Below the pieces are notes generated by a model. That model made no database searches. It was not told the origin of the DNA and saw nothing but the letters and a program-made list of their open reading frames with translations. Positions 24,265-41,593 of a stretch of DNA of 64,000 bases are shown here, piece by piece. This DNA is from Echinarachnius parma (lineage: Eukaryota; Echinodermata; Echinoidea; Clypeasteroida; Echinarachniidae), in NCBI GenBank assembly GCA_037951105.1, contig JBAMJV010003285.1:62001-126000 (forward strand). Direction: 5' to 3'. The translations under genes and the position numbers were made by a program. Each line of letters starts with the position of its first letter. The stretch's first letter is position 1.

Positions 24265-25140
24265 ATTGCAGATTTGAAAATAAGTCCTACAAGGAACCAT
24301 TTTCAAGATGTGGGTCTCCCTTCTCTTGCTTCTTGGAACCTGGATGACATCCTGCCAAGCCGACCTGAGCAATCCGAGAGGCCTTGGTGTTGAAAGCGGT
24401 CGGTCATGTGTCCCGTCCTTCAACATCAAAACACAATTGTTATTATTAAATCATTTTAAGTTTAACAATTAAATTCCATTACAGATTTGAAAACAAGTCC
24501 TACAAGGAACCATTTTCAAGATGTGGGTCTCCCTTCTCTTGCTTATTGGAACCTGGATGACGTCCTGCCAAGCCGACCTGAGCAATCCCAGAGGCCTTGG
24601 TGTGGAAAGCAGTCATGTGTCCCGTCCTTCAACATCAAAACACAATTGTTATTATTAAATAATTTGAAGTTTAACAATTAAATTCCATTACAGATTTGAA
24701 AACAAGTCCTACAAGGAACCATTTTCAAGATGTGGGTCTCCCTTTTCTTGCTTCTTGGAACCTGGATGACATCCTGCCAAGCCGACCTGAGCAATCCCAG
24801 AGGCCTTGGTCTGGAAATCAGTCATATTTCCCCATCCTCTATTAACATAAAACACATTGTTTAATCAAATAATTTTAATTCTAAAAATCAAATTCCATTG
24901 CAGATTTCAAAACAAGTCCTAGGAGGAACTATCTCAAGATGTGGGTCTCCCTTCTCTTGCTTCTTGGAACCTGGATGACGTCCTGCCAAGCCGACCTGAG
25001 CAATCCCAGAGGCCTTGGTGTGAAAAGCGGCCACGTTTCCCGACCTCTAACTAGAGCCTCCCAGGGGTCACCATGGCCGATGCCACAGAGCCTCGCTGTG
25101 TTCCCTGATGTCTACACTTTGGTTGGAGAGAGTGAATTTA
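24265..25140 (+). repeat. Four tandem copies of the hexosaminidase signal-peptide exon
   Basis: Copies start with ATGTGGGTCTCCCTT at 24308, 24521, 24730 and 24939 (spacings 213, 209 and 209 bases). Each has its own polypyrimidine tract and AG acceptor. Copies A-C keep an open signal-peptide frame but then run into intron-like sequence and a stop, with no convincing donor. Only copy D continues into the mature protein. Confidence 0.92.
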
Positions 25141-25141
25141 C
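24939..25141 (+). CDS. HEXB: Hexosaminidase coding exon 1 (signal peptide, functional copy D)
   Basis: This is the last of four tandem copies and the only one that runs on into mature protein sequence ([20 protein letters not shown]) and a good donor, AC then GTGAGC. The upstream acceptor is TTCCATTGCAG. Signal peptide: a hydrophobic Leu run followed by SCQA. Confidence 0.9.
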
Positions 25142-28100
25142 GTGAGCATAAAAATTCACCTGATTTTCATTGCTACTGTCCTAATTCAATAATACATGTT
25201 TGGTTGAATTTTATACTAAACCAATAAACCAAAATGAGTGCTTTGGGCCCTCCAAATTTCAGTGATGCTATTAAAATTCCATTGGCCCAAATGGGCAACC
25301 AAATATAAACAGAATTGTTAATGTTTTTTTTTATTATTTTAGGTCCACCAGATTCAGGATTCGGCCCATTAGAATTTGACAAATCTTGTTTTTACTTGCC
25401 CAACTGGGCCTCAAGGCAAAGAATTTAATATAATATATTTAATAAAAAAATTTTAAAAACTACAGCCATCATTTTATGAATTTAACTTTTTCCTTATTTC
25501 TGTATGTTTACAAGTATGTGCAGTGGAAGTGCTCATTATTATGAGACCTATTTCCCTTTCATAACGGAGAATCAAAAGTACATGTACTCTGGTTACCCTG
25601 AAATAACAAGATTTCAGATATAATCAGATAATTTTCATGGTCCCATACACTGTGTTATAACAAAATTTCACTGTATAAGATGCACAGGGAGGCAATCTTT
25701 TTATGCCTCCGCCAACGAAGTGGCCGGAGGCATTATGTTTTCGGGTTGTCCGTCCGTCCGTCCGTCCGTCCGTACGTCCCATTTTCGTTCTCGCGATATC
25801 TCACGAACCGGTTGACGGATCAATTTCAAACTTGGTATGAGTGTACATATTGGGGTGACAATGATCTGATTAGATTTTAGGGGTCATGAGGTCAAAGGTC
25901 AAGGTCACAGGACTCAATATATATGCAAAAATGCCTCGTTCTCGCGATATCTCAAGAACCGGTTGACTGATCAATTTCAAACTTGGTATGAGTGTACATA
26001 TTGGGGTGACAATGATCTGATTAGATTTTAGGGGTCATGAGGTCAAAGGTCAAGGTCACAGGATGCAAAAATGCCTCGTTCTCGCGATATCTCAAGAACC
26101 GGTTGACGAATCAATTTCAATCTTGGTATGAGTATACATATTTGGGTTGCAATGATCTGATTAGATTTTGGGGTTCATGAGGTCAAATGTCAAGGTCACA
26201 GGGCTCAATTTGCAAAAATGTCTCGTTCTATATTATATATCTCAAGAACTGGTTGACGGATCAATTTTAAACTTGGTATGAGTGTACATATTGGGGTGGC
26301 AATGATCTGATTAGATTTGGGGGGGTCAAAGGTCAAGGTCACAGGACTCTCAAAATATGTGAAAATGGCTTGTAACATTTGGCAAAATCTCAAGAACTAA
26401 ATGTCAGATTTCAATCAAACTTGGTACCTGAATGTTTCTTAGGGAGCCAATGTAGCCATCAAAGGTTGGGGTCATATGGTCAAGGTCACATGACTCAAAA
26501 TATATGAAAAATATAAAAAATGTATTGATTCAGTGCATATCAATTTTAGCTGGATATTCAAATCGCGTGATAGTGGAGGCATAATCTTCGACTGCGCGCA
26601 GTCGAAGATCCATCTAGTTTTTAATGTTTTTTTTAAAATCACTTTTCTTTTTATTAAAAGGTTCACGCCCGCAGCTATAAAGTGTGATGACCTGTACAGT
26701 GCATTTGACCGGTACAATGACATCATCTTTTATGGCAAGCGACAGGTGTCAAAAAAGCCTCGATCCTCACATCCAAGGAAGGCATTTTCGGACACAGAGC
26801 TGAGTGGACTGCAAGTAGACATACAGAATCCATGCACAGCATACCCAGTGCTTGATTCAGATGAAAGCTGTGAGAAAGTTATCTAATAAATGCTTTTATT
26901 TAATCACTAATCTGTTTGCTTGATGATCCCATAACCTCTGGAGCTCTTCACTAAGAGTTTTATTACAATTTCTTCAACTCTATATGCACTTTCAATGCCA
27001 ATTAATACTCTGGCAGTGGCGTAGCGTGGTCAGACTGATTGGGGGTGGGGGCACACTTTGTGTTGTAATTAAAGTGCATTTCCCCGTGTGTTTTTTACTT
27101 TTTTAAAACAAATTATTATGATTGTACTGGGCTGGTATCTATTATTTTGAAAATTCAACCTACACATGCTTTTTTAAATGTGGGGGGGGGGGAGAAGTTA
27201 AATGCTGAACATTATGTTTTCCCAGAGTATTGTTAATGTCTTGATTTATTTAAATTGAAGCAACAAACTACCAAAAAAGAGTTATTGAATATAATATATA
27301 TTGAACTAGGTAGCCATAACTGTTTAGAGGGGACCACCAGGCAAAGGACAACACATTATTATATGTTTTGGTACCGTTTTGTGATATCAAATAGATACCC
27401 AGCATTTTGCAAAGGGTTGTGTAATTTTCATAAACAAAGCAATTAATTTCCCTTAATTTCCACCACTTACGGAACCACTGCTATTTCCTGGTTCCATACG
27501 GGCCAAGCATTTGCGAGTGCGCCAATGCTTTCACGCGTACGTCAAAAGATTCCCGGATGATTCATTCGCTCTGCACAGTGCGCTCTGGCTCTGCACGCAT
27601 ATAGTCTACGCAATTCAGACCGCATGAACGCATGGTTGAGAATGGTGATGCGTTTTCCAATTATATATTTTTTTCTGAAAACATATTTTTGTGAACTTGT
27701 TGAAGGAATGGAATACTAAAGATGGTACCTTTCTATAATAAGAACATTATTTTTGGGTGGTGGTACCCTTTAACATATTTCTGATTGGAGGGTGTAATAG
27801 TGTAGATATTTATGTTTTCCCTCAGATAATCTGGATGTTGCTGCCCCATTTGCAACACTGACTGCTAGTACAATCTGGGGAGCGTTGAGAGGTGAGAACT
27901 TTAATCCAACTTATTGCATTTTGGTTAGATTTTGAGTTACAGTATACATTGGTAATTTCAAATAAGGGCTACCATATGTTATCAAAAGCAAGTTCTGCTG
28001 AAATATTTGACCTCATTTCCTGAAGGTTTTCACAGCTTTTGTTTTTATTCTTAAAGGGATCTAGTAACTTTGTTGACATGTGCAAAAATGATGAATGGTT

Positions 28101-31100
28101 GATTCAATGTATATTGTTGTTATCTGATATGTCCACTGAGTATTGTGTGAAAATTTCAAGTTAAATGGACGTTATATGGCCGAGTAATGAGCAAAAATGC
28201 AAAGTGATATTCACTAAATCATTGCACTGACTTTGTAAACGGTTTCGACGATCCAGTGGATAATTTGACATCTGAATACTTCAATTGTAAATATCTTTTT
28301 AACAAGTGGGAAATTTTAAAAACTGAAACCTGTCCCATGCTTTTATTGTTAATACGAATGCAACAATGTATGAGGGGAATGCTAGAATTCCAATTGGATT
28401 TTGAGGATTTGGACAATGTTACTAAGTCCCTTTGATGATAATTACAATTTTGCTTTCTGCATGTTGTATATATAATTATTTGAGATGATGATGTCATAAT
28501 GTAGTGTAACAGAGTATTTATATTGGTTGATTACCATTGCATGTTACTATAGCAAGTCAAAATGCATCAAAGTATATCCTGGTATATATTCAAAACCAAA
28601 CCATGCACTATTTTGTATAACATGATGTTCATACTTTTTAAGTACAATTGACATTGAACATTGCATTTGTTTCATCTAGCAGGACTATTAAACATAAAGA
28701 TTGACTTTGTAAATTGTAAAAAAAAACCCATAGAAAGCAAAGAAAACAAAGAATTGGCATTTAACTTAGCAAATATTTAAATCTTTTGACTTTGACTTTG
28801 AATTGGGCATGGTTTATTGTACTATAAAACCCTAAAAAGTCCAGGGGGAAGGGGGCGTTGACAGTGTAAACATGAACATCTACCATTGCTTAGCTCCAAG
28901 GATGGTGAGATTATATTTCAAACAAGAGGTAAAGAATCATGGTGATTTTTTCAATAATATTTGTTGTTTCTTTCTCTTGATTCAATCTTTCAGGTTTGGA
29001 AACATTCAGCCAGTTAATATATGAGGCTGATAATGGTCTGGTAAGTGCACCACTAGCATTCCAAACATTGATTTGTATCAGTCTTTTACCACTATGGTTG
29101 CATTGGGCTAGTATGCTCCCTGGGGAGTTGAGAAGGTGCACAAGATGATTGTGAAGATTGTAAAGTACTGTGCGTTAATGAACAGGGGTAATTGTGCACC
29201 GCAAGTGACATCTGTGTGCATAATAAAGGCAGAATTATTATTATTGAACTTTTATTTGTATTAATATTATCATCTGTGCCTTTACAAGACTCAACAATAT
29301 CTTGTTTTTCTTTTCTGGTGGTCCAGTTGGGCTACTGCTAGTGAAATATACAATTTTTCCTATTTTATTGGCCAAATCGGTGTTTGGAAAAGACATTCCT
29401 CAAACAGAGCAAAAGCATTCCAAAGTCCGCCTTATTGGCTGGGCTCATTGTGCAAGTAAAGGTTGCATTAATGGAAATTGTGGTGGCTTTATAAGCTCAC
29501 TTTATCATGTTCAGGGGTTTAAATTGGGCCAGTTCTAATTTTTAGCCTATTGCTTGTAATATTGTTTTCATCCTAGTCTTTTATATTGTTTTAACCTTTG
29601 TCTTTATTGTTTTTCTTTGGTGCATTTTTACCATTTCTACAAAAAATGTGAATGATTTTCTCTTCCAGCTCTTGGTGAACAGGACAACAATTGCAGATAA
29701 GCCGCGGTTCAAGCATCGTGGATACATGGTTGATTCATCCAGGCATTATCTCAGCATGTCCTCCATCTACAAGTCTCTGGTAGGTTTTATTTATCTATAA
29801 GTGAAATGCAGTGCCTGACAAATTCACATATAGACTAATGATTGCATTCTAATAAAGGCGTCCAAGTTCATAGAGCAATCTGGAGGGTTTTAGGTTAGAA
29901 TCAAAATATGTTGGAACTGTCTTATTTCTTGAAACTTTGATGCTGTGCCATGTTAAAAAAGAATGAATTTTAACCCATTCATGACTGGTCCTGGAAAATA
30001 CTCGGGCTGGAGTCTATGGAGAATACATGTACACGTTATAGCAAAATCAGTCAGTCCAGAGTGGGTTAACCCATCAAGGACGAGAGCTATTTTAAGGCAA
30101 AATTTATCATTGTTTTTCCTCTACAAATTGGCAACTCCTAATTTTTTTTGACCGATCAATGACATAAAGTAATGATCATTTAAGACAAATATGAAGTGAC
30201 TTTGCCACAAAGTTGCCAATTTGAATGGCAATATCGGTTTTTAAAATATCACAATGTGTTGCCAATTTAAGGATTTTTCTAAATTATAGTGATTTACGCA
30301 ATAATAAAAATCATTAAAAAATAACTAAAGCAGGTAGATTAACAAAATAGGGCTCTAAAAATAGAGGAATTTATGCTCTTTCTTCCTGTACACTTCACAT
30401 AACTAGTCTTCTTCTTGTTCAAGTGTAGGACTACCAAACCACAAATATGTGGGCCTTAGGCACTGATGGGTTAAAACCATTTAAAAAAAACAGAAGAAAA
30501 TAACCTTACAAAATATGTAAAACTGTCATTGTAAAAGAAAATACAAAATTGTGTGTAAACATTTATTTTGTACAATTGGCAACACTGCTTGGTTGTATTA
30601 AACACAAACTGTATAGGAATTAGAAAGATGTTAAGTATAATGTATTAACAAGCTGACAATGTGTAGTTATATGCATACTGGCACATTTTTGCCAGGGGAT
30701 GTCTGTTACCCAATTACTGTCTTTCCTGTTTTTCACCTGACAAGAAGGAAAAAAAGGTTCTTTCACTTAAGAGTTCCCCGAAAAATAGTACTTTTTATGA
30801 TTTTGCATGAATTTGTTTAAAAATCATATGGTTTTGACCCAATATGACATGCTCTTTGCCCGAATATTGACATTTTCAGAATCCTCGTAGCTCCCACCCC
30901 CTCCCCCCACCCCCTCATACACCTATGTTTGTAGTTATGCCATAGTCATGTTTGTATTGCCTCTCTTATATATTCTGTAGGATGCACTGGCTTACAACAA
31001 GTTCAATGTGTTCCACTGGCATATTGTGGATGACCAGTCTTTTCCCTACGAGAGTGCTGCTTTTCCCATCATGAATCAAAAGGTAAGAGCAATAATCCAG

Positions 31101-34100
31101 AATTTGTTTTGTGGAAAAAGAAGAATACATGTATACTGATAATTGTAGGATGCAATTGCAATCAAGTTCAATGTGTTTCATTGCCCTATGGTTGATGACT
31201 AGTCATTTCCATGTAAGAATGCTTCTTTTCCTACCAGAAGTCATCAGATGGGCCTCATCATACGTTTTGTAAAAAAAAATTTTTTTTTAATTGAATACTC
31301 TTTTTATGCCTCCGCCAACGAAGTGGCCGGAGGCATTATGTTTTCGGGTTGTCCGTCCGTCCGTCCGTACGTACGTCCGTCCGTCCGTCCGTACGTACGT
31401 CCCGTTTTCGTTCTCGCGATATCTCAAGAACCAGTTGACGGATCAATTTCAAACTTGGTATGAGTGTACATATTGGGGGTGACAATGATCTGATTAGATT
31501 TTAGGGGTCATGAGGTCAAAGGTCAAGGTCACTGGACTCAATATATATGCAAAAATGCCTCGTTCTCGCGATATCTCACGAACCGGTTGACGAATCAATC
31601 TCAAACTTGGTATGAGTGTACATATTAGGGTGGCAATGATCTGATTAGATTTGGGGGGGTCATGAGGTCAAAGGTCAAGGTCACAGGGCTCAATTTGCAA
31701 AAATGTCTTGTTCTATATCTCAAGAACTGGTTGACGGATCAATTTTAAACTTGGTATGAGTGTACATATTGGGGTGGCAATGATCTGATTAGATTTGGGG
31801 GGGTCATGAGGTCAAAGGTCAAGGTCACAGGACTCAAAATATATGAAAAATATTTTTTTTTTATTAATTCAGTGCATATCAATTTAGGCTGGATATTCAA
31901 ATCGCGTGATAGCGGAGGCATAATTTTCGACTGCGCGCAGTCGAAGATCCATCTTTTTTTTTTTAGGATGCAATTGATGCATTGTGGTCATTGGCAAATT
32001 GTTGATGACCAGTCATTTCCCTACATAATATTTCACTACATAATATTTCACTACATAATATTTCACTACATAATATTGTTTTGTTAATTATACATTTGTT
32101 TATTTATTTATATATCAATTCATTTTTTGGGAGTAGGGTGTATGTTTGTGTGTGTGGGGGGGGGGGGGGGTGGGGGTGGGGGGGAGTAAGTATTGACTAA
32201 ACTGTATGAAAACGAAATTCATTAATACATTTCATTAATGAAATAATGAAACTGTTTACTGCTTTCAGAATGCATTTGACCAGCATCACGTGTACACGCG
32301 GGAGAACGTCAAGCAGGTGATCGAGTACGCCCGTCAGCGAGGGATCCGCGTCGTGCCCGAGTTCGACACCCCCGGCCACACCCAGTCCTGGGGCGCCATC
32401 CCCGACCTCCTTACCCCCTGCTACGATGCCAAGGGGCAACTAACGGGGGCGTTTGGACCCATTAACCCCACCCTGAACTCCACGTACGAGTTCCTTAAGA
32501 CGTTCTTTGCCGAGGTGGTGGATCTGTTCCCCGATAAGTATGTCCACATGGGAGGGGATGAGGTCAGCTTCGCTTGCTGGTAAGTCACTTGCATTTGTGA
32601 CCTTACACCACAAAACGACCGTTAAGTTGCGGTAGTAGTTTCTCTTTTATTAACTGAAATAGTCAAATATTGTTTAAAATATGACATTTAGAATTTTGAG
32701 TATTTCCTGAATGTAGGTATCTTAATCTACCTTCTGTTAAATCTTGAGCATCAGAAATTATGTTTGGCTCTCATTTGAGGGAGTTTGCTTAGTCCAAATA
32801 TGACAAATTATATAGCATTTCAAATATTATAATGACTTCTACTGTGGAAATCAGCACAATCATTTTCCCCGACTTATTGCTCATTTTGAGGTGAAAGGTC
32901 ACATGAATGACCTATCTAGGATAGTTGCAGAGAGCAACTGTATTGTTCCACTCGAGTTGATCAGGCAATTATGAAAAACCAGACAAGAGGACATGATTGT
33001 CCCCAATATCAAGATCTGACATGGCACTCTGATTTATTAACCTTTTCAAGACAGGTCCCTGAAAAAAAGCCTTTCGGGGTTTCGTTTAGGTTTTATGATA
33101 ATCGTTTAGTTTATAGTTTATCTAAAAACCTGACAAAAAAATAACTGAAACAAAAGTTAAGCCCTAACAGTAGTTAAATTGAGGCTAGGAACTAAAAATG
33201 AAATATCTCCTTAAAGTACACATTTGCCCAGGTAGCTAGAAGAGTACCACAGGTTGATTGCAGTAAAATAATATACAAATTATGTATTTTTCTTACTACA
33301 CATTTCCTGCATTTAATGTATCTCCATTTTCCACAGGCAGAGCAACCCATATATCACAGAGTTTATGCAGGCCCAGCAGTTTGGCAAGAACTACAGTAAG
33401 CTAGAACAGTACTATGAGCAGAGACTACTAGACGACATGGCCCAACTCAAGGCAGGCTACATCGTCTGGCAAGAGGTCATCGACAACGAGGTCAAGGTGA
33501 GTGAATGTATTGCCATGGTTACATTTCTAACGATTGTACAAATCGCTATGGTTACATATTCTTCAGCAGCTATAGTAAGCTGGAACAGTCCTACGAGCAG
33601 AGACTACTAGACGACATGGCCCATTAGTATACAGAAATAATTCAGTGCATGTTAATTTGGACTTGATAGAAAAGTCGCGTGATAGCAGAGGCATCATTTT
33701 TGACTGCGCGCAGTCAAAGATACATATATTTTTTTAATGCCGTGGTAGCATTATATTGTAATAAATTATTAAAGTGATCCATTAACTCTATATTTTTTCC
33801 CAAATCTAATGTTTGAGACTTCAATCATATACCAATTTAACTGGAAGATTCTTGTAAGAATTTCATAGAAAGGATTAAATGTAACCTAGTGAAAACAGAG
33901 AAAATCAATGTCTTGATTTTATCCCGATCGTTCGCGTGAAGTATCCAAATTCGAATACTATGGACGATTGAGTATCCAAATTTAGATACTCTTGACTACG
34001 GTTGGAAACCATTTACACACGCTCTTAAATTCAATCTTAAATATATCCATGATTATGGAGACATTTGAAAAATGAAAACCCATTTCATTCTTCTGTTAAC

Positions 34101-37100
34101 ATAAGCCAAACAACAAGGTACAAGAGAAGTGGGTAAGCTCCAAGTGATTTTGGTTGAAAGTGTACAAAGTTAATGGATCACTTTTAATAAGAATGCTGAC
34201 ATTTTTCTAGGTGCGATCCGACACGGCATGTCCATGTGTGGAAGCAACCGTATGTAAGTGAGTTATTCAACGCCACAGCCAAAGGATTCAAGACACTATC
34301 ATTTAGCAATCCATTAACCTAATGAGTAATTTTGGCGTCACAACATGTATTGTTAATTGAACCCTTGGATGATTTGGATTGAAATAACGTGAGGTCAACT
34401 TTAACTCTCTTTATAATGATTAGTGCTGTGCATCCATTTTGTGTAAAATTATATATGAAACATGAACAAGGAATGCTGATATTTTTCTAGGTGCGACCCG
34501 ACACAGTTGTGAATGTGTGGAAGGAACCATTTGCAAGCGAGTTATTCAACGTGACGGCCAAAGGGTTCCAGTCGCTGCTATCGACCCCGTGGTACCTCAA
34601 CTACGCCGGTAATCCATATGGACAGGACTGGAAAGGATACTACCAGGTGGAGCCGACAAACTTCAATGGTGCGCAGTTTATACCATAACTGGAACCGTTA
34701 TGCATGTGCATGCATGTGCTTGGAAATCTGTGCTGCCTAATACACAATTAGTCAAACCTGCTTTTGTTTTGTTCCGCTTCTTTCTCCCCCATTGTTGCTA
34801 CTCAAGTGATCCATTAACTTCATAAGAGATGTCCAAAAAGAGATATTTGAGACTTCAGTCATATACCAACATTATTGTATGAACAGTGGCGTAATGAGCA
34901 AAAACTTTGGGGGGGAGCTAAACAAAATCCGCATCGCCACCGGATATTGCGAGGGAGCGAAGCGACCAAGCCCAAAGGAGCGAAGCAACTGAGCGGGGGG
35001 AGGGGGGTGTCCCCCCTCCCACGGTAGGGAGCTTTTGCATTTTTGGACTTGAAACTGTGCAATCTGGTGCATACCTGGAAAGGAAATTCTGATTTGACGA
35101 CATATAGTATAATAATACGTGTGGTTTGCGGTTGCACCATGTAACATAATGTGCGTTAGTGCGTCATTATCGTCATGATTCTTAACCAGAAGAGGTTATG
35201 ATTGATTCATGAAGAAAAACAAAAATGCACCCCAAAAATAATATTCGCAAAGTGACATATTCAGTTCAAACAGTGCATCAAAAGCATTATTTTATGACAA
35301 AACAACATGAACATTGTATTCCAGATGTATACAAGACCGATTCCCGAGGGAGCGAAACGATAACCGAGAGGGGGAAGGGTGATGGGAGGGTGTGATGGTA
35401 GGTGACGCCAGTGTGTATAAATAATCTTCTGAATGATGTGTGATGGTTTCATAGAAGAAGAATATTGTTTACCCTGTGAAAAAAAGTGAAAATTGATGTC
35501 AGATTTTGTCACCTACTGCCCATTTATTTTGACAGCAATTAAAAGGCGTTTCTGGAATGCTTTTCATTCAGTCATAAATATCTCCATGATTAGGGAGATA
35601 TATTTGAAAAATCAAAACCATGTCATTCTTCTTTTACCATGAGCCAAACAACACGGTACAAGAGAAGTGTGAAAGCTCCAAGTGATTTTTGTTGAATTAG
35701 AAATAGTTAATGGATCACTTTTAATAAAGACCTTGCTCTTTTTATCCTCATTTGCTTGAATTCTCATTAGCACATTAAATTTAACCTCGGGTAGAACCAC
35801 ATAATTTGGTGGCATTTTAACAATACATTGGCCAAATTAACCCATCCATGGGTTAAATTTGTTATGAACACCATTGTGTTGAATTTAAAGCATTATTTGA
35901 AAAGAACCCGAGGTAAACTGAAACCTGATGAGAATTTCTGCCTAATGTTTTGTATCTGTTGCCAACCTCTTTCAAAAGTGTTTTCCACTGTTCTTTGTTT
36001 CGTATGTCTTATTGTTTCCCCTCCCCCCCCCCCCCCAACTCTGTTGTACATTTGTGGAAGGGTATTTCCATCACCATATCCGACAGGGTTTTCGCACGCA
36101 CGTAATGCCCCCTTTATTCGATATAGTGAATCAACATTAAAGACTTTGTCGCCCGCCCTTTAGGTAAATCCCAACGCTGCTGTGCATGTGTTGAATGGTA
36201 ATTAATAGAGGGAGGGAGCAAATGTCAGCCTATCGGACAGGGCTTATTAAAGCGCACTCGTAATGCCCCCTTATTTTTATTTTTTCAAAACTTTGTCGCC
36301 CCCTGTAGGTAAATCCCGACACTGTTGTTCATGTGTGGAGGGATAACTGGGAGAGCGAGGCAGCGAATGTGACACAAAAGGGATTCCACACTATCATATC
36401 ATCCCCTTATTACCTCAACCGGGTGGTTAGCCCCTACTCACGGTATTGGCGTGACTTGTACACCACTGATCCACAAAATATTAATGGTATGTACTAAGAT
36501 TTTACAAATCTTAAAACATGACCCTAGAAACCATTTAAACACTTTTGCATATTCATATGTTCCCTTTATACCTTAACCCTATTCTAACTGGGCTATTTCA
36601 GACCAGGTTTTTACTGGGGGGGGGGGTCAATTTGACCCCCCCCCCCCCCCACCTAAGATCTCGAAGACGGATTGTCCGATTCACGTGAAATTTTGCATGG
36701 AGGTACATTGAAGTATTAGCGACGCGTTCATGTTTTCGTTTTAAACGATCCAATGTTAAATATGCAAATTATGCACATATTCATTACCGAAGTACGCTAA
36801 TTTATGCCGAAATCCTCTTTTTGTCTGTAAATCACTAAATATTGCGATAGCCAAAATTTTCTTTACGTATTTCTTTGTTTTGGGAATTTCTTATGTATTT
36901 CTTTGTTTTCGACTTGTTTTTTTGTTTTTTAATGGAATAAATTATTGACCATCATCCAACCATTTTTAGCCCCAAATTAAATGATTGCAGTGATTAGAAT
37001 GAAAAATAATGAAAGTTTTGTGTATTCTAGGAACAAATCAATTTACCGATTTTTGGGCTGACGATCACTTACGAAAGGTCACGTGACTTTAGAATGGTAT

Positions 37101-40100
37101 ATCTGGTCGTCGCAAATTTGGTCTCAAAAGTTGCGCAAGACTTAAATGAAAAAACTCATGAAGTCGCGCGGCAATATCTGCGCGCGTTGCGGAATGATCG
37201 CGCTAAAGTCGAGGGGGGGTCAAATTGACCCCCCCCCCCAGTTAGGATAGGGTTAAACCGGTTGGTTAACCCCTACTCACAGTATTGGCGTGACCTGTAC
37301 ACCACTGATCCACATAACATTAATGGTATGTACCAAGATTGAATGAGAATATTAGTATAATAATATATACCCTGCAATAGCAAACAAGAATGCTTCCAAT
37401 GCTCATATTATTCCCCCTTACCAAATAACTGTGAATCTATCCTGTACTCACCGTATTTGTGCAACCTTTATACTATTGATCCACAAACTATTAAAAGGTT
37501 CAATGTATACTGTATACACCAAGATTGATAAGGGTACACGCAAATATAAATTTCGCTGACACTCCTGTAATACCCTTGTTTTGGAAATTCAATTTTCGTC
37601 TAAACTAGATTGCTATTCTGCACATTAAACATGTATTATAGAAAATAAAGATCACAAACAAATAATATTTCCTTTTATGTAAGGTCCTGTTAATCTGTTG
37701 AGTAGTATTTATTTGTGTATATTTATCGTAAAGTGTTGTCCTCAACTTTTGCTAGTTTGCCCCCCTATCTTCGTATTGTGTTCCATTTATGTCGGTTGTA
37801 ATAGCTTTTCAGGCCATTGCAGTTTAACTGTACGTCATGTATTTGTTTAACAGCCTTGAATGCTTTATACTAAATAGCCACCATCATTTTAACAACTATT
37901 TTCTAACAAAATTTGTTTCTTTCATTGCATTCTCACTTGCATTCATGCTTTACTACCACATATTTCCTTGTTGAATTTTTAATGGGAAAGCTCTAATTAT
38001 TGAAGCTCATATATCTTAGTTAAAATATATTTTCATATATATATATATATGTCCATTCAATTTTGTACTTTATTTTTTGTATTTATCATGTGTGCACTCT
38101 TATTGCAATGTTGTATTGCTGCTTTTTGCTAGGTATTATTGTTTTAGTTAAATACAAATTCCCTCTTTACTTAGCATTAAATATAATTTTCCTGTTTAAC
38201 CTATTCAGGACTAAATAGTAACTTTAAAAATTACAGGCCACGCCATGTTACTTTGGCTACTACCACATCTACAAAGTACATGGTCCACTCGGGTGGACCA
38301 TTTACACGCAATATACGCTAATACACGGGAGATTAGCATACTGCCCATTCGTACACTGTACCGATCATCGATTGAACGCTATGTGTTAGGACGCATCGGT
38401 AAGGAAAACAGCCGGGAATTAGTCTCTTTTTTTTCTACATTTTGCGGTTTTTTTTCTACATTTTGCGGTCTTCAAAACAACAGAGTCGGTAATTATTATC
38501 AAAGTATATGAATTGTGGATCACATAAACAAAAGTTTTTTTGCATTTGCTGGTAAATTGAGAAATCGTCCGACAAAAATTGTTTTCGTTTTGGATAATGC
38601 AGCAGGCGGAAGAGGTTGATCTCCACACAACACTATTGTAATGTACCTAGGTGTGGCTACTACTAGTATTTTAAGGAAACATCAAGCACATTCACAATTA
38701 GAAAAAATAAGGTTTTGCTCATAGGTAGTAAGTATGGTGAATACATTTGTAGGAAATACTTGGTATTGAACTTCTTAAAAACAAATTTTCCTGATCAAGT
38801 TTATGTGAAGCACAAATTCCAGCTTATTATTCGAGTTATAACCCGCTCTTTATGACTGTTGGATAGCAAAACAGCAATGATCGAATGCTATATTTTGGGC
38901 ACAACAAAATAGAAGATTTATATGATTACATTTTCTTATATCACTGTTCTTAACCCTCTAAGTGCTACTTGAGTCATAACATTCATTAAATTAGAATTGC
39001 AGATCTGCTGATCATAAATAAACATACCTTGAAGGCCACACCTCACCATCTTCATCGTGAGAGTTGACAGTTTGGTGTGGTAGGGTTTAGTTGGTCCTTT
39101 TGAGCCCATTTTAAAAACCCAACCCATTTAAGAAAATTAAAATGCACACAATAGACAAGTGCGTGCGCTGAACACATTTTGTAGGCACTTGACCTCTTAC
39201 AAAGCTTATATTCCTTGTAGATGAACGGGAGGGGGGGGGGTGGATTTATTAAGCTATTCATGAAGACTTTTCCAAAATAACTCTTATCAAGTAGGTTCTT
39301 GCAATCTGTATTTCATGAACTTTGTGATTTTTGTTGTTGACAGGCACTGAAGCGCAGAAGGCACTGATCATAGGAGGGGAGGTGTGCATGTGGGGAGAGT
39401 ATGTAGACTCGACCAACATCATCCAGAGAACGTGGTAAGATTCTGTGGGTCAGCCATTTATAAGGATTTATTTTCTTTCTGGCCGCTACCCTCTCAAATA
39501 TGTACCCTTTTTTATACTACGTATTATGTAATTTATTTTAGTATGTGTTTTGTCGTTATTCGTGTTTCAATCGTATTTTTGTATTTTTTATGAGTGAAAT
39601 AAACTGGAAATGAAATGAAATGATTTACTCTACGTTTCACTCATTCAGGACTAGTCTCCCAAACACTGGGGCTTGGGTCCATGGAGAATGAGTGTTATAC
39701 CAAAATCAATCCGTCTTCCTTTGGTTATAAACTGGGTTCCAAAAGAAACTTATCACTTCTTCAGAGCGACACACATTAAAATCCAAAGCATAACAAGTAT
39801 TCATAATTGGGCATAGAATAGATATAATACTCCTTAGCAAGCTCATCTACAAAAATTATGTTTGCTTTAATCAACAAAGAATAAAATAAGGTGAAATCGC
39901 AAGAGGTCATTTTTCAAAAATCACAGATTCTGCGAGCAGTTTCTGAAACCGCTCGCTTTCCGAGCACAGAGCTCGATACGGACAATAGCCAGTCTAGTTA
40001 CATAACCCGCTTTGAAGTTGAATGAATAGCTATTGAAAGTTCTGAATAGACCGCCTTTCGTGGAGGTTCGCAGCGAGCAGTTTCTGTGATTTTTGAAAAG

Positions 40101-41593
40101 TGACCTGTAGTGATTCCACGGTATTTTTCTCTTTTTTGGCAAAAGCAAACTTGTAATTTGTGAGATATGCTTCATAATGAGAATAATAGCTTATCTGTGT
40201 CTAAATATGAATCAATTTGGTGCTATGGATTTTAGTAAGCGTCGCTCTGAAAAAGTGATAAGTTTCTTTTGGAGCCCAGTTTAGTTTGATATTTGGTATC
40301 TTCATCGTTAGATGCAGATACGCTAACTGGATCTCCAGTGTCATATTTTGTATCATTAAAAGCTATGCCATTTCAAATACGTACCCTCCCAATGAAAACA
40401 ATTCATGTGTAGATATATAGATAGATGTGGTTTATTTTTAAATGTAAACACAGAAATTTAGCTTCCACTGGCTGACAAATTAAAATAATATTACATTTCC
40501 ATGGCAAAATATGAAGAATGAAGTGCACACTATGAGTAGAAAAAATACAGTAATAGAAGAGGAGGTATATTAAAGAGGAAATGGGAAATGTTTGTATCAA
40601 CTTCCATGAACCAAACACTCATTTTGATAATCATTTTCATTACTCAGGCCGAGGGCAAGCGCTGTAGGAGAGCGTCTATGGAGTGCCAAGGATGTCACCT
40701 CTGTTACTGAGGCGGCCCCCAGGCTCCTGGAGCACAGATGTCGTATGGTCAGGTGGGTCAACACTCGGCAACATCTTATTCCCAGTGCTTTAGTCGAGTC
40801 TATACTCGACTGCTGTTGATGGTCTCGTGACTTGGAGCCGAGTCACAATGTAAAACAAACGGGAACATACTATTTTCGTTGGGGACTCGGACTCGGAACT
40901 TGTGGACTCGAACTACAGCCCTGCTTATTTCTAATTCCTCCCTCCCTCGAACCCCTCCCTTCTCCATCATAACCAAATATCAGCTTAAACCCAGAAGCTT
41001 TCTTTTTCTTGCAGAAATGTTTACACTTTGAATGATTTTGAAGAAAAACAGCAATTCAACCACATACATGTATAATCTCATTCACCTCTCAGAAGTACAT
41101 TGATGATAGTAAGTACATGTATGGTGGAACCTTGTTATACAGAGCTATGAGATAACAAAATCTACTGTAAACAAGGCAATTTTCATGTCCCAGCCTGTTA
41201 TATTCTTCTTCTTTTTTACCCTGAGATAATAAGGTACCCAAAGACCTTGTTATTATGAGGTGTCACTTTTTTTTATGAAGACCAAGCTTCACTCAGAGGG
41301 CTGCCGAAAAAAAGTAGGGAAAGTTAGACCAGCTTCTTGACTACGAGTTATAAAATTACATGTTCTTCTTATTCATTCATCCCCTCCCCCTTGAATACTA
41401 GGTATTACATAATGATCTTACGCCAGTGGTTTTAACAATAGTCACAAACATATGCGTAATCAAATTATTGAAACCGGTGGGGAAATAAATTCTTCCGTTT
41501 CGTTTTTTTTCTTTGCTTTTGCTCCCTAGACGTGGACTGCAGGCGGAGCCTGTGACGGGACCATCTTTCTGCAAGTACGAATATGAGGATTGA
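24939..41593 (+). CDS. HEXB: Lysosomal beta-hexosaminidase (GH20), 12 coding exons, 548 aa
   Basis: Coding segments: 24939-25141, 26661-26869, 27826-27891, 28994-29040, 29669-29779, 30981-31082, 32269-32579, 33337-33496, 34491-34668 (or alternatively 36309-36486), 39344-39434, 40648-40752 and 41530-41593. All phases agree. The enzyme removes terminal beta-linked GlcNAc/GalNAc from glycolipids and glycans in lysosomes. The protein has a signal peptide ([18 protein letters not shown]), an N-terminal GH20b domain, then the GH20 barrel. Visible active-site features are SRHYL with Arg200 (HEXA Arg178), EFDTPGHT, and the Asp343-Glu344 pair in HMGGDEV (HEXA Asp322-Glu323). The length fits human HEXA (529) and HEXB (556). 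It probably represents the single ancestral gene. I use HEXB because GFM2 is its tail-to-tail neighbour. Codon GC is high in exon 7. Confidence 0.95.
25703..26618 (+). mobile_element. Helitron-like element, copy 3 (most complete)
   Basis: TATGCCTCCGCCAACGAAG with a cggaggc hairpin, a CCGT run, then four units starting at 25785, 25937, 26077 and 26223. It then has gcggaggcataat (inverse of the start), the 18-20 base hairpin TTCGACTGC-GCGCAGTCGAA (one mismatch here) and a CTAG end followed by T. Confidence 0.75.
26661..26869 (+). CDS. HEXB: Hexosaminidase coding exon 2
   Basis: 209 nt encoding [19 protein letters not shown] through LDSDES. The real donor is the GTGAGA at 26870, inside an apparently longer open frame: splicing there restores DESY, as in HEXB, and joins in phase to exon 3. 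Confidence 0.9.
27338..27773 (-). repeat. MITE with AGGGTACCACC ends, minus orientation
   Basis: Reverse-complement relative of 18749-19161, in hexosaminidase intron 2. Confidence 0.82.
27826..27891 (+). CDS. HEXB: Hexosaminidase coding exon 3
   Basis: 66 nt after TTTTCCCTCAG, encoding the stretch that ends [10 protein letters not shown]. It aligns with the VWGALRG motif of HEXA/HEXB. Donor GTGAGA. Confidence 0.9.
28055..28436. repeat. TTAA-type MITE
   Basis: TTAA-AGGGATCTAGTAAC at the left and GTTACTAAGTCCCT-TTGA at the right, in hexosaminidase intron 3. Confidence 0.75.
28994..29040 (+). CDS. HEXB: Hexosaminidase coding exon 4
   Basis: 47 nt encoding [16 protein letters not shown], almost identical to the GLETFSQL motif that opens the GH20 catalytic domain. 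Donor GTAAGT. Confidence 0.92.
29669..29779 (+). CDS. HEXB: Hexosaminidase coding exon 5
   Basis: 37 codons containing [19 protein letters not shown]. The Arg in SRHYL corresponds to HEXA Arg178, whose loss causes the B1 variant of Tay-Sachs disease. Phase 0 at both ends. Confidence 0.93.
30981..31082 (+). CDS. HEXB: Hexosaminidase coding exon 6
   Basis: 34 codons including [20 protein letters not shown], the conserved FHWHLVDD region. Acceptor TTCTGTAG, donor GTAAGA. Two decayed copies follow downstream. Confidence 0.93.
31149..31243 (+). pseudogene. Relic copy of hexosaminidase exon 6
   Basis: The acceptor TTGTAG is followed by gatgcaattgcaatcaagtt and caatgtgtttcattg, parallel to exon 6. 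In-frame stops (GACTAG) and small changes show decay. It begins about 65 bases after the real exon. Confidence 0.85.
31312..31953 (+). mobile_element. Helitron-like element, copy 4
   Basis: Same start, CCGT/ACGT run and about 145-base units, and the ttcgactgcgcgcagtcgaa hairpin end. It lies between two relic copies of hexosaminidase exon 6. A 3' fragment of the family lies at 33640-33720. Confidence 0.75.
31967..32026 (+). pseudogene. Second relic copy of hexosaminidase exon 6
   Basis: TTTTAG, then gatgcaattgatgcattgtg and gttgatgaccagtcatttcc, repeat exon 6 with an internal deletion. A Helitron-like element separates it from the first relic. Confidence 0.8.
32152..32185. repeat. G-rich run close to hexosaminidase exon 7
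   Basis: Almost pure G over 34 bases, about 85 bases before the acceptor of the catalytic exon. Confidence 0.9.
32269..32579 (+). CDS. HEXB: Hexosaminidase coding exon 7 (catalytic Asp-Glu)
   Basis: 311 nt, strikingly GC-rich. It encodes [18 protein letters not shown], then [19 protein letters not shown] and [12 protein letters not shown]. The catalytic Glu344 codon is at 32560-32562, preceded by the Asp that orients the substrate N-acetyl group. The donor is GTAAGT after TG. Confidence 0.95.
33337..33496 (+). CDS. HEXB: Hexosaminidase coding exon 8
   Basis: 160 nt encoding [18 protein letters not shown] through [14 protein letters not shown]. The VWQEV motif is a GH20 hallmark. Donor GTGAGT. 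Confidence 0.93.
33566..33626 (+). pseudogene. Partial copy of hexosaminidase exon 8
   Basis: The block agctatagtaagctggaaca through gacgacatggccca repeats the middle of exon 8 almost exactly. It then runs into the 3' end of a Helitron-like repeat. It has no acceptor or donor of its own. Confidence 0.85.
33772..34190. repeat. MITE with AGTGATCCATTAAC ends; relative at 34803-35728
   Basis: aaagtgatccattaact and agttaatggatcactttt form the ends here and in the second copy. That copy is interrupted by a G-rich insert (about 34885-35535) containing gagcgaagcg motifs. Confidence 0.75.
34211..34321 (+). pseudogene. Relic copy of hexosaminidase exon 9a, frameshifted
   Basis: It follows the same TTTTTCTAG acceptor as exon 9a and shares the stretch from GTGCGA to the AAAGG(A/G)TTC region. 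One extra base near 34228 breaks the frame and the 3' half is missing. The preceding intron sequence is also duplicated. Confidence 0.85.
34491..34668 (+). CDS. HEXB: Hexosaminidase coding exon 9, version a
   Basis: 178 nt after TTTTTCTAG, encoding [34 protein letters not shown] and [16 protein letters not shown]. It keeps the Trp of PWYLN (HEXA Trp392), which lines the sugar pocket. The donor GTGCGC is weak. It is closer to vertebrate HEX than version b at this Trp. Confidence 0.85.
36164..36200 (+). pseudogene. Relic copy of hexosaminidase exon 9b start
   Basis: A CTTTAG acceptor and GTAAATCCCAACGCTGCTGT closely repeat the start of exon 9b. The copy collapses within about 35 bases and soon reaches TAA/TAG. 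It is part of a roughly 145-base tandem duplication that includes upstream intron sequence (cgacagggtt...ctttgtcgccc). Confidence 0.8.
36309..36486 (+). CDS. HEXB: Hexosaminidase coding exon 9, version b (alternative)
   Basis: 178 nt, the same length and phase as version a, after CCCCCTGTAG with donor GTATGT. It encodes [20 protein letters not shown] and then [10 protein letters not shown]. The pocket Trp is replaced by Tyr. Because 178 is not a multiple of three, including both versions would break the frame, so only one can be used per transcript. Confidence 0.8.
36520..37332 (+). pseudogene. Relic copy of hexosaminidase exon 9b, split by a TTAA-flanked insertion
   Basis: The part at about 36525-36576 (ending catatgttccctttatacc) aligns with the middle of exon 9b. 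The part at 37257-37332 encodes a near copy of its end ([17 protein letters not shown]) with the same GTATGT donor. The element at 36577-37252 sits between them. Confidence 0.8.
36577..37252. mobile_element. piggyBac-like non-autonomous element
   Basis: 676 bases with CCCTATTCTAACTGGG and CCAGTTAGGATAGGG inverted ends and TTAA duplicated on both sides (36573-36576, 37253-37256). TTAA plus CCCT ends are piggyBac hallmarks. No transposase frame. It sits inside a relic exon. Confidence 0.8.
37395..37497 (+). pseudogene. Older relic copy of hexosaminidase exon 9b
   Basis: Degraded similarity to the second half of exon 9b (tgtactcaccgtatttgtg, ttgatccacaaactatta), with no intact splice donor. Confidence 0.65.
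39344..39434 (+). CDS. HEXB: Hexosaminidase coding exon 10
   Basis: 91 nt encoding [20 protein letters not shown] and [10 protein letters not shown]. It matches the [20 protein letters not shown] motif of HEXA. Acceptor GTTGACAG, donor GTAAGA. Confidence 0.95.
39728..40283. repeat. Foldback element
   Basis: ctgggttccaaaagaaactt and aagtttcttttggagcccag are the outer inverted ends; inner gagcagtttctg blocks are also inverted. Confidence 0.83.
40648..40752 (+). CDS. HEXB: Hexosaminidase coding exon 11
   Basis: 105 nt completing [19 protein letters not shown] and ending [19 protein letters not shown] is diagnostic of the family. Acceptor TTACTCAG, donor GTGGGT. Confidence 0.95.
41530..41593 (+). 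CDS. HEXB: Hexosaminidase terminal coding exon 12
   Basis: After GCTCCCTAG it encodes [20 protein letters not shown], then Asp and TGA. It resembles the family end RRGVQAQPLNVGFCEQEFE. Confidence 0.93.

Follow-up and report, generated by a model that had tools for sequence, protein, structure and literature searches.

The window, by which we mean the whole 64,000-nucleotide stretch of Echinarachnius parma DNA that was analysed, contains on its + strand what its sequence identifies as a complete beta-hexosaminidase gene of the HEXA/HEXB type (GH20). The gene has 12 coding exon positions from a start codon at 24939 to a stop codon at 41593 (+), and all of its internal exon borders are AG / GT. 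Position 9 is occupied by two versions, 9a and 9b, and the joined 12-exon GT-AG model encodes 548 residues without a stop when either version is used. The coding features are as follows.

24939..25141, + strand: coding exon 1, with the start codon, the signal region and SPWPMPQ
26661..26869, + strand: coding exon 2
27826..27891, + strand: coding exon 3
28994..29040, + strand: coding exon 4, with LETFSQLIY
29669..29779, + strand: coding exon 5, with DSSRHY, which we take to be the region of human R178
30981..31082, + strand: coding exon 6, presumably the region of human D207
32269..32579, + strand: coding exon 7, with the catalytic GGDEV
33337..33496, + strand: coding exon 8, ending in phase 0 at AAG/GTGAGT and joining 9a or 9b
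34491..34668, + strand: exon 9a, 178 nt, with PWYLNY (Trp at human position 420, N-Y at 423-424)
36309..36486, + strand: exon 9b, 178 nt, with PYYLNR (Tyr at human position 420, N-R at 423-424)
39344..39434, + strand: coding exon 10, entered in phase 1
40648..40752, + strand: coding exon 11, with GERLWS
41530..41593, + strand: coding exon 12, stop codon included

In the PDB the product matches a HEXB chain best; E is 6.8e-114 when a 282-residue piece of the 9a form serves as query and 8.6e-108 with the 9b form. A profile search of the assembly gave a GH20 match above the Pfam cut-off at exon 7, where GGDEV contains the catalytic D-E pair. Equivalents of the pocket residues W373, W392 and Y421 of human alpha are all present: YIVW lies in exon 8, and 9a and 9b each contain VW and YLN. 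Among the best 120 of 7089 database proteins, the residues aligned with human W392 and Y421 are present in all 120. Active-site roles are assigned to D322 and Y421 of human alpha in the accessible part of a published study (PMC3377590). Apart from an odd fish protein (P0001), the closest database proteins are those of the sea urchins Diadema setosum (76%), Lytechinus pictus (74%) and Strongylocentrotus purpuratus (73%).

An earlier note on this DNA had described 9a and 9b as two intact 178-nt exons running from phase 0 to phase 1 with acceptor and donor sites, and this description is exact to the base; each exon is open, with AG before it and GT after it. They also encode clearly different proteins, as the note had stated, with 28/59 residues identical, and the motifs that it had read as PWYLN in version a (PWYLNYAG) and PYYLN in version b (PYYLNRVV) are both present. 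The DNA of the two exons is identical at 104/178 positions (58%), and the identity is concentrated at codon positions 1 and 2 (79/118) relative to position 3 (24/59; Fisher p=0.0012). Both exons taken singly score below the Pfam GH20 cut-off of 22.3 bits (9b, 18.0 bits over residues 3-41; 9a, 13.1 bits), and in phmmer searches the 9b form aligns with the human HEXB and HEXA chains across the whole exon. With a generic donor matrix, the donor of 9a (ATG/GTGCGC) is the weaker at 1.7 bits and that of 9b scores 3.6 bits, which places them at the 95.9th and 98.9th percentiles of all GT dinucleotides in the window. The two thus have the anatomy of a mutually exclusive pair, namely adjacent homologous exons of equal length and phase, each with its own splice sites. 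Joining both exons breaks the frame, as the earlier note had reasoned: translation ends after 474 residues instead of 548, with the stop 11 wrong-frame codons beyond the shared codon. With neither exon, translation ends after 410 residues, and double inclusion and double skipping are both unproductive. A tandem exon duplication would account for the two exons. Since double inclusion and double skipping both shift the frame and bring an early stop, a productive message most likely contains exactly one of 9a and 9b, and messages with both or neither would be expected to be lost to nonsense-mediated decay. One-at-a-time use of 9a and 9b in Echinarachnius parma is likely, where we infer the use of 9b itself from the sequence.

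Apart from this pair, seven or more partial exon duplicates lie within the gene: exon 6 is represented twice, exon 8 and 9a once each, and 9b three times. They agree with their parents at 77-93% of aligned positions; all are incomplete, and several are gapped or interrupted by stops.

31144..31231, + strand: broken partial copy of exon 6, 71/91 identical, with gaps and an in-frame stop
31980..32024, + strand: short partial copy of exon 6, 39/46, with one gap
33570..33623, + strand: partial copy of exon 8, 50/54, lacking splice sites of its own
34191..34292, + strand: 5' half of 9a, duplicated together with its acceptor, 85/102, with a one-base gap and no 3' half
36137..36225, + strand: copy of the 5' part of 9b with its acceptor, 69/89, with gaps and stops
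37256..37340, + strand: young duplicate of the 3' part of 9b, donor included, 78/85; it has an open frame and lacks the 5' part and the acceptor
37445..37494, + strand: older partial copy of the 3' part of 9b, 39/50

Repeats are found in the gene as well. Related elements at 33771-34187 and ~34804-35723, with the ends AAGTGATCCATTAACT / AGTTAATGGATCACTT, flank 9a together with its relic and resemble a foldback or MITE-type element. On the two sides of 9a lie inverted arms (33771-33804 and 35688-35721) that are 76% complementary; these arms, a candidate for RNA pairing that loops out one exon, look like the ends of two copies of the repeat element. A perfect 30-nt inverted repeat with G/C runs lies at 36613-36642 and 37213-37242, 570 nt apart; the recent 9b relic at 37256 follows shortly downstream. 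The segments 25870-26400 and 31290-31990 give near-identical peptides from their reading frames and probably represent a dispersed repeat that occupies two of the introns of the hexosaminidase gene.

The partial copies of exons 6 and 8 are what a decayed larger duplication might leave, and 9b could accordingly be part of a second, overlapping or assembly-collapsed copy of the gene. However, a GH20 search and a search with exon 9b in the assembly (1.2 Gb, 14,790 contigs; best 5 and best 7 candidates scored, respectively) found no second locus, all matches but one at chance level (E=8.2) being to this gene. Within the window, tblastn found no second intact set of the remaining exons, and the gene model of Diadema described below splices 9b within the same gene. 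A second gene copy as the source of 9b was found in neither the window nor the assembly searches, and we regard this explanation as very improbable.

The annotation of Diadema setosum provides evidence on 9b in another sea urchin. Isoform X2 (P0065, 505 aa) does not differ from isoform X1 (P0002) until exon 9 ends, after which 39 unrelated residues follow. This tail is exon 9b in the wrong frame, as the joining of 9a to 9b must give: it equals the wrong-frame translation of the 9b of the window at 21/40 positions at zero offset (stop included), against 0-5 positions for six other offsets. The two translations also share their stop. When the Diadema 9b was decoded in its proper frame, it was compatible with the 9b of the window at 35/40 sites, which is an upper bound on identity because the decoded sites are sets of possible residues. 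The 10,000 shuffled controls fitted at 7.6 sites on average and at no more than 18, and the 9a of the window fits at 27/40. The decoding forces no stop, and it excludes Trp at human position 420 (C, F, S or Y). Exon 9b is therefore present at the same place in another urchin. The earlier note had named its reading frame in relatives as a check, and the Diadema frame, decoded from protein, is apparently intact over the 40 readable codons.

This isoform is the only sea-urchin gene model found with 9b, and it holds both exons and encodes a truncated protein. Since the Diadema gene model joins the two, their exclusion is not absolute in annotation. In this respect the urchin gene departs from pyruvate kinase M1/M2, a case of tandem mutually exclusive exons that it otherwise resembles in having neighbouring homologous exons of like length and phase; the choice alters enzyme properties in pyruvate kinase and would do so here. 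A search for 9b-bearing proteins by region gave one candidate, which was not significant, and a search among short proteins with a short query gave none; both used a protein database clustered at 90%, and this clustering may hide 9b isoforms.

The exact 9a+9b composition and early stop of Diadema X2 are also what would be seen if 9b were a regulatory poison exon, included jointly with 9a to halt translation and so adjust the enzyme level, without any enzyme of the 9b type being made. Such an exon needs no reading frame of its own, yet 9b keeps its frame, Trp 392, Y421, N423 and a fitting length, and there are full-length sea-cucumber proteins in which exon 9 is b-like (P0010, P0011). We therefore consider a purely regulatory role of 9b unlikely.

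The alternative that 9b is decaying or already dead, being an old exon copy that the gene has ceased to use or uses only in error, draws on the seven or more partial copies, which indicate that duplication and decay are routine in this gene, and on the protein database searches, which found no 9b-only protein. In neutral simulations the frame was still open in 7-9% of cases at the observed 74 changes and in 16-22% at 37; because 7-9% stay open, the open 9b frame by itself is modest evidence. On the other hand, the divergence of 9b from 9a exceeds that of every relic from its parent, and 9b is nevertheless whole, with both splice sites, and the fit of the Diadema 9b at 35/40 decoded sites and the codon position-3 bias also speak against decay. 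Since the seven relics are closer to their parents and yet partial, and since the Diadema 9b matches, 9b is probably no dead copy, and we give this alternative a low probability. Coding constraint on both exons is indicated by the Diadema decoding, the codon-position bias and the partial-copy controls. Two functional alternative exons, 9a and 9b, are very likely on the basis of these sequence comparisons.

Where the two versions differ was determined by alignment to the human HEXA chain 2gk1_I, with the offset of the human numbering derived from the lengths of the chains and from known residue numbers. The earlier note had taken Trp392 as the difference between versions a and b. Residue counting on this chain rules this out: the tryptophan of VW is Trp392 and is kept in both exons, and PWYLN corresponds to W420-Y421-L422-N423, so that the Trp of this motif is Trp420. 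Trp at human position 420 is present in 118 of the best 120 of 7089 proteins, the exceptions being P0010 and P0011 with Phe. The equivalents of N423-R424 are LNR in 9b and LNY in 9a, and the pair of human alpha is found in the 9b form only. The same N-R pair occurs in 14 of the 120 proteins, namely in P0007, P0010, P0011 and P0022, which have echinoderm b-like exons, in nine fish or frog proteins and in one further protein. The alpha-specific IPV398 loop falls in a gap of 9b against HEXA, and beta is likewise without the loop.

In humans, two versions of this segment are carried by two genes, HEXA and HEXB; in the urchin both are neighbouring exons of one gene. According to the accessible parts of two papers, N423-R424 of human alpha admit acidic substrates and D452-L453 of beta do not (PMC3587417, PMC8162980), and in the former, alpha residues of this segment were moved into beta to build hybrid enzymes (PMC3587417). 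By alignment, human HEXA exon 11 and its HEXB counterpart form the same enzyme segment (~residues 383-443), and the portion of the source at hand places HEXA codon 393 within exon 11 (PMC3377590). As far as these partial sources describe it, HEXA exon 11 carries the residues that separate alpha from beta specificity, of which 9b has the N-R pair. The swap would keep the catalytic D-E pair and the equivalents of human Trp392 and Tyr421 and would alter the wall of the substrate pocket, notably at human positions 420 and 424 (W and Y in 9a; Y and R in 9b). The 9b form may tolerate or prefer negatively charged sugars, such as sulfated amino sugars and sialylated lipid, in likeness to human alpha through R424, and the 9a form may handle neutral sugars. 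Because residue 424 of 9a is Y and not acidic, the contrast between 9a and 9b is milder than that between human alpha and beta. A different substrate range of the two forms is plausible from these residues, and 9b may work like alpha at the N-R site, which is not a claim that it is an alpha subunit.

Variation confined to exon 9 is also seen in other animals. The best 120 of 7089 database proteins give 7140 pairs, from which the 119 pairs with P0065 were dropped, as this protein is without the flanking sequence. In 629 pairs, identity over exons 7, 8 and 10-12 was 80% or more, and in 261 of these exon 9 was more than 20 points lower; the same test gave 0/332 for exon 7, 0/425 for exon 8 and 0/466 for exons 10-12. 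These pairs are non-independent, and fish pairs are most among the rows listed. Pecten maximus X1 and X2 have 20 differences, all in exon 9. The same confinement to exon 9 holds in Mya arenaria for P0032 against P0036, P0039 and P0052 (21-22 differences) and for P0036 against P0039 (23), as well as for Poecilia formosa X1 and X2 (30). In Seriola dumerili, P0086/P0087 and P0116/P0118 differ in exon 9 and are identical in exons 4-8 and 10-12; N-terminal differences are present too and are probably gene-model variants. The sea-cucumber protein P0006 agrees with P0010 and P0011 at 88-89% in the flanks and at 51-53% in exon 9, P0010 and P0011 agree with each other at 91% and 86%, and the crinoid proteins P0005 and P0007 agree at 83% and 51%. 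P0006 and P0011 were assigned to sea cucumbers from their flanks. Because they are intron-less frames (533 and 538 residues) on short contigs of 2.7 and 3.0 kb, they presumably are assembled transcripts.

The earlier note had also held that vertebrates use two genes for what the urchin would do by splicing. This is incomplete, since two versions of the exon also occur within HEXB as annotated in teleosts. Teleost isoforms can differ in exon 9 only, as in Poecilia formosa X1/X2, like the urchin pair. Among the teleost HEXB proteins listed, X1 has N-R or N-H in 4/4 and X2 has D-Y in 11/11, although the labels are no rule, for Scophthalmus "isoform 2" (P0093) has N-R. The urchin pair departs from that of teleosts in setting N-R against N-Y and in a further change at W420. 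Seven shark HEXB proteins labelled "isoform X2" (P0060, P0062, P0063, P0068, P0073, P0107, P0120), listed among the 120 without X1 partners, have N-V or N-Y at human positions 423-424. The bivalve isoforms of Pecten maximus and Mya arenaria are identical outside exon 9, like the 9a and 9b forms, but none has the N-R pair, and their exon-9 versions may be separate duplications. One HEXB-like protein of Mya arenaria, P0019, contains two different exon-9 segments in one chain, which is either a gene-model error or real double inclusion. In the hemichordate Glandiceps talaboti, isoform X1 (P0030) reads GWYLNH and agrees with other hemichordates at 54-56% in exon 9 and 81-82% in the flanks; its exon 9 may be another alternative version.

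Annotated isoforms of scallop, clam and fish carry one exon each; Diadema X2 and Mya P0019 carry two. The alternative-exon reading of the earlier note is supported as far as two functional exons are concerned, by 9b in Diadema and by isoform differences confined to exon 9 elsewhere, and its mutual exclusion is likely, with one Diadema model containing both. We consider it quite probable that the only hexosaminidase gene found in the assembly has two functional exon-9 alternatives derived from tandem duplication, that one of them enters each productive message, and that the choice alters the substrate pocket.

The age of the pair was addressed with exon-9 trees of 59 residues. A first, smaller FastTree placed the 9b of the window beside the hemichordate Glandiceps (support 0.86), and IQ-TREE with more sequences placed it among the b-like exons of other echinoderms (sea cucumber, brittle star, crinoid; ultrafast bootstrap 79). 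Since the two trees differ, the place of 9b is unstable. In the IQ-TREE analysis, the echinoderm a-types except Antedon fall in a clade of 22 with the D-Y vertebrate HEXB (94). Fast constrained searches gave uneven likelihoods, in that a looser constraint scored below a tighter one, and eight of the nine constraints (C1-C4, T2-T5) were therefore redone with full searches; the constraint for an a-type clade (T6) gave p=0.03 in a fast constrained search. Echinoderm monophyly (AU 0.39), vertebrate monophyly (0.29) and both together, the pattern expected if the pair arose separately in the two groups (0.30), were not rejected, and an origin of the pair within urchins alone (AU 0.29) or crinoids alone (0.125) is compatible with the data. 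An origin within sea cucumbers alone was rejected (AU p=0.015, full search). That urchins, sea cucumbers and crinoids each acquired the pair independently was rejected by AU (0.015) but not by p-KH (0.06) or p-SH (0.06). One tentative scenario, which we think rather doubtful, is that the division of labour between vertebrate alpha and beta goes back to alternative splicing: the HEX gene of an ancestral deuterostome would have had N-R and neutral versions of the exon, of which echinoderms and teleost HEXB keep both and HEXA and HEXB fixed one each.

The earlier note knew of no report of this kind, and our literature search of open-licence papers, mostly at listing level, likewise found no alternative exon 9 in any hexosaminidase. 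A study of reef fish includes hexb among genes differentially spliced during a heatwave, and its accessible part does not state the event type (PMC8933327). Since the isoforms are already in public annotation, the novelty is in recognising and reading them. Exon 9 holds the residues that, in the accessible part of the source, most decide whether a human subunit can cut GM2 ganglioside and sulfated sugars (PMC3587417). If animals swap this exon by splicing, nature has repeated the hybrid-enzyme experiment in which alpha was put into beta. If true, this would provide natural exon variants for understanding the enzyme and would make the origin of the HEXA/HEXB split directly testable.
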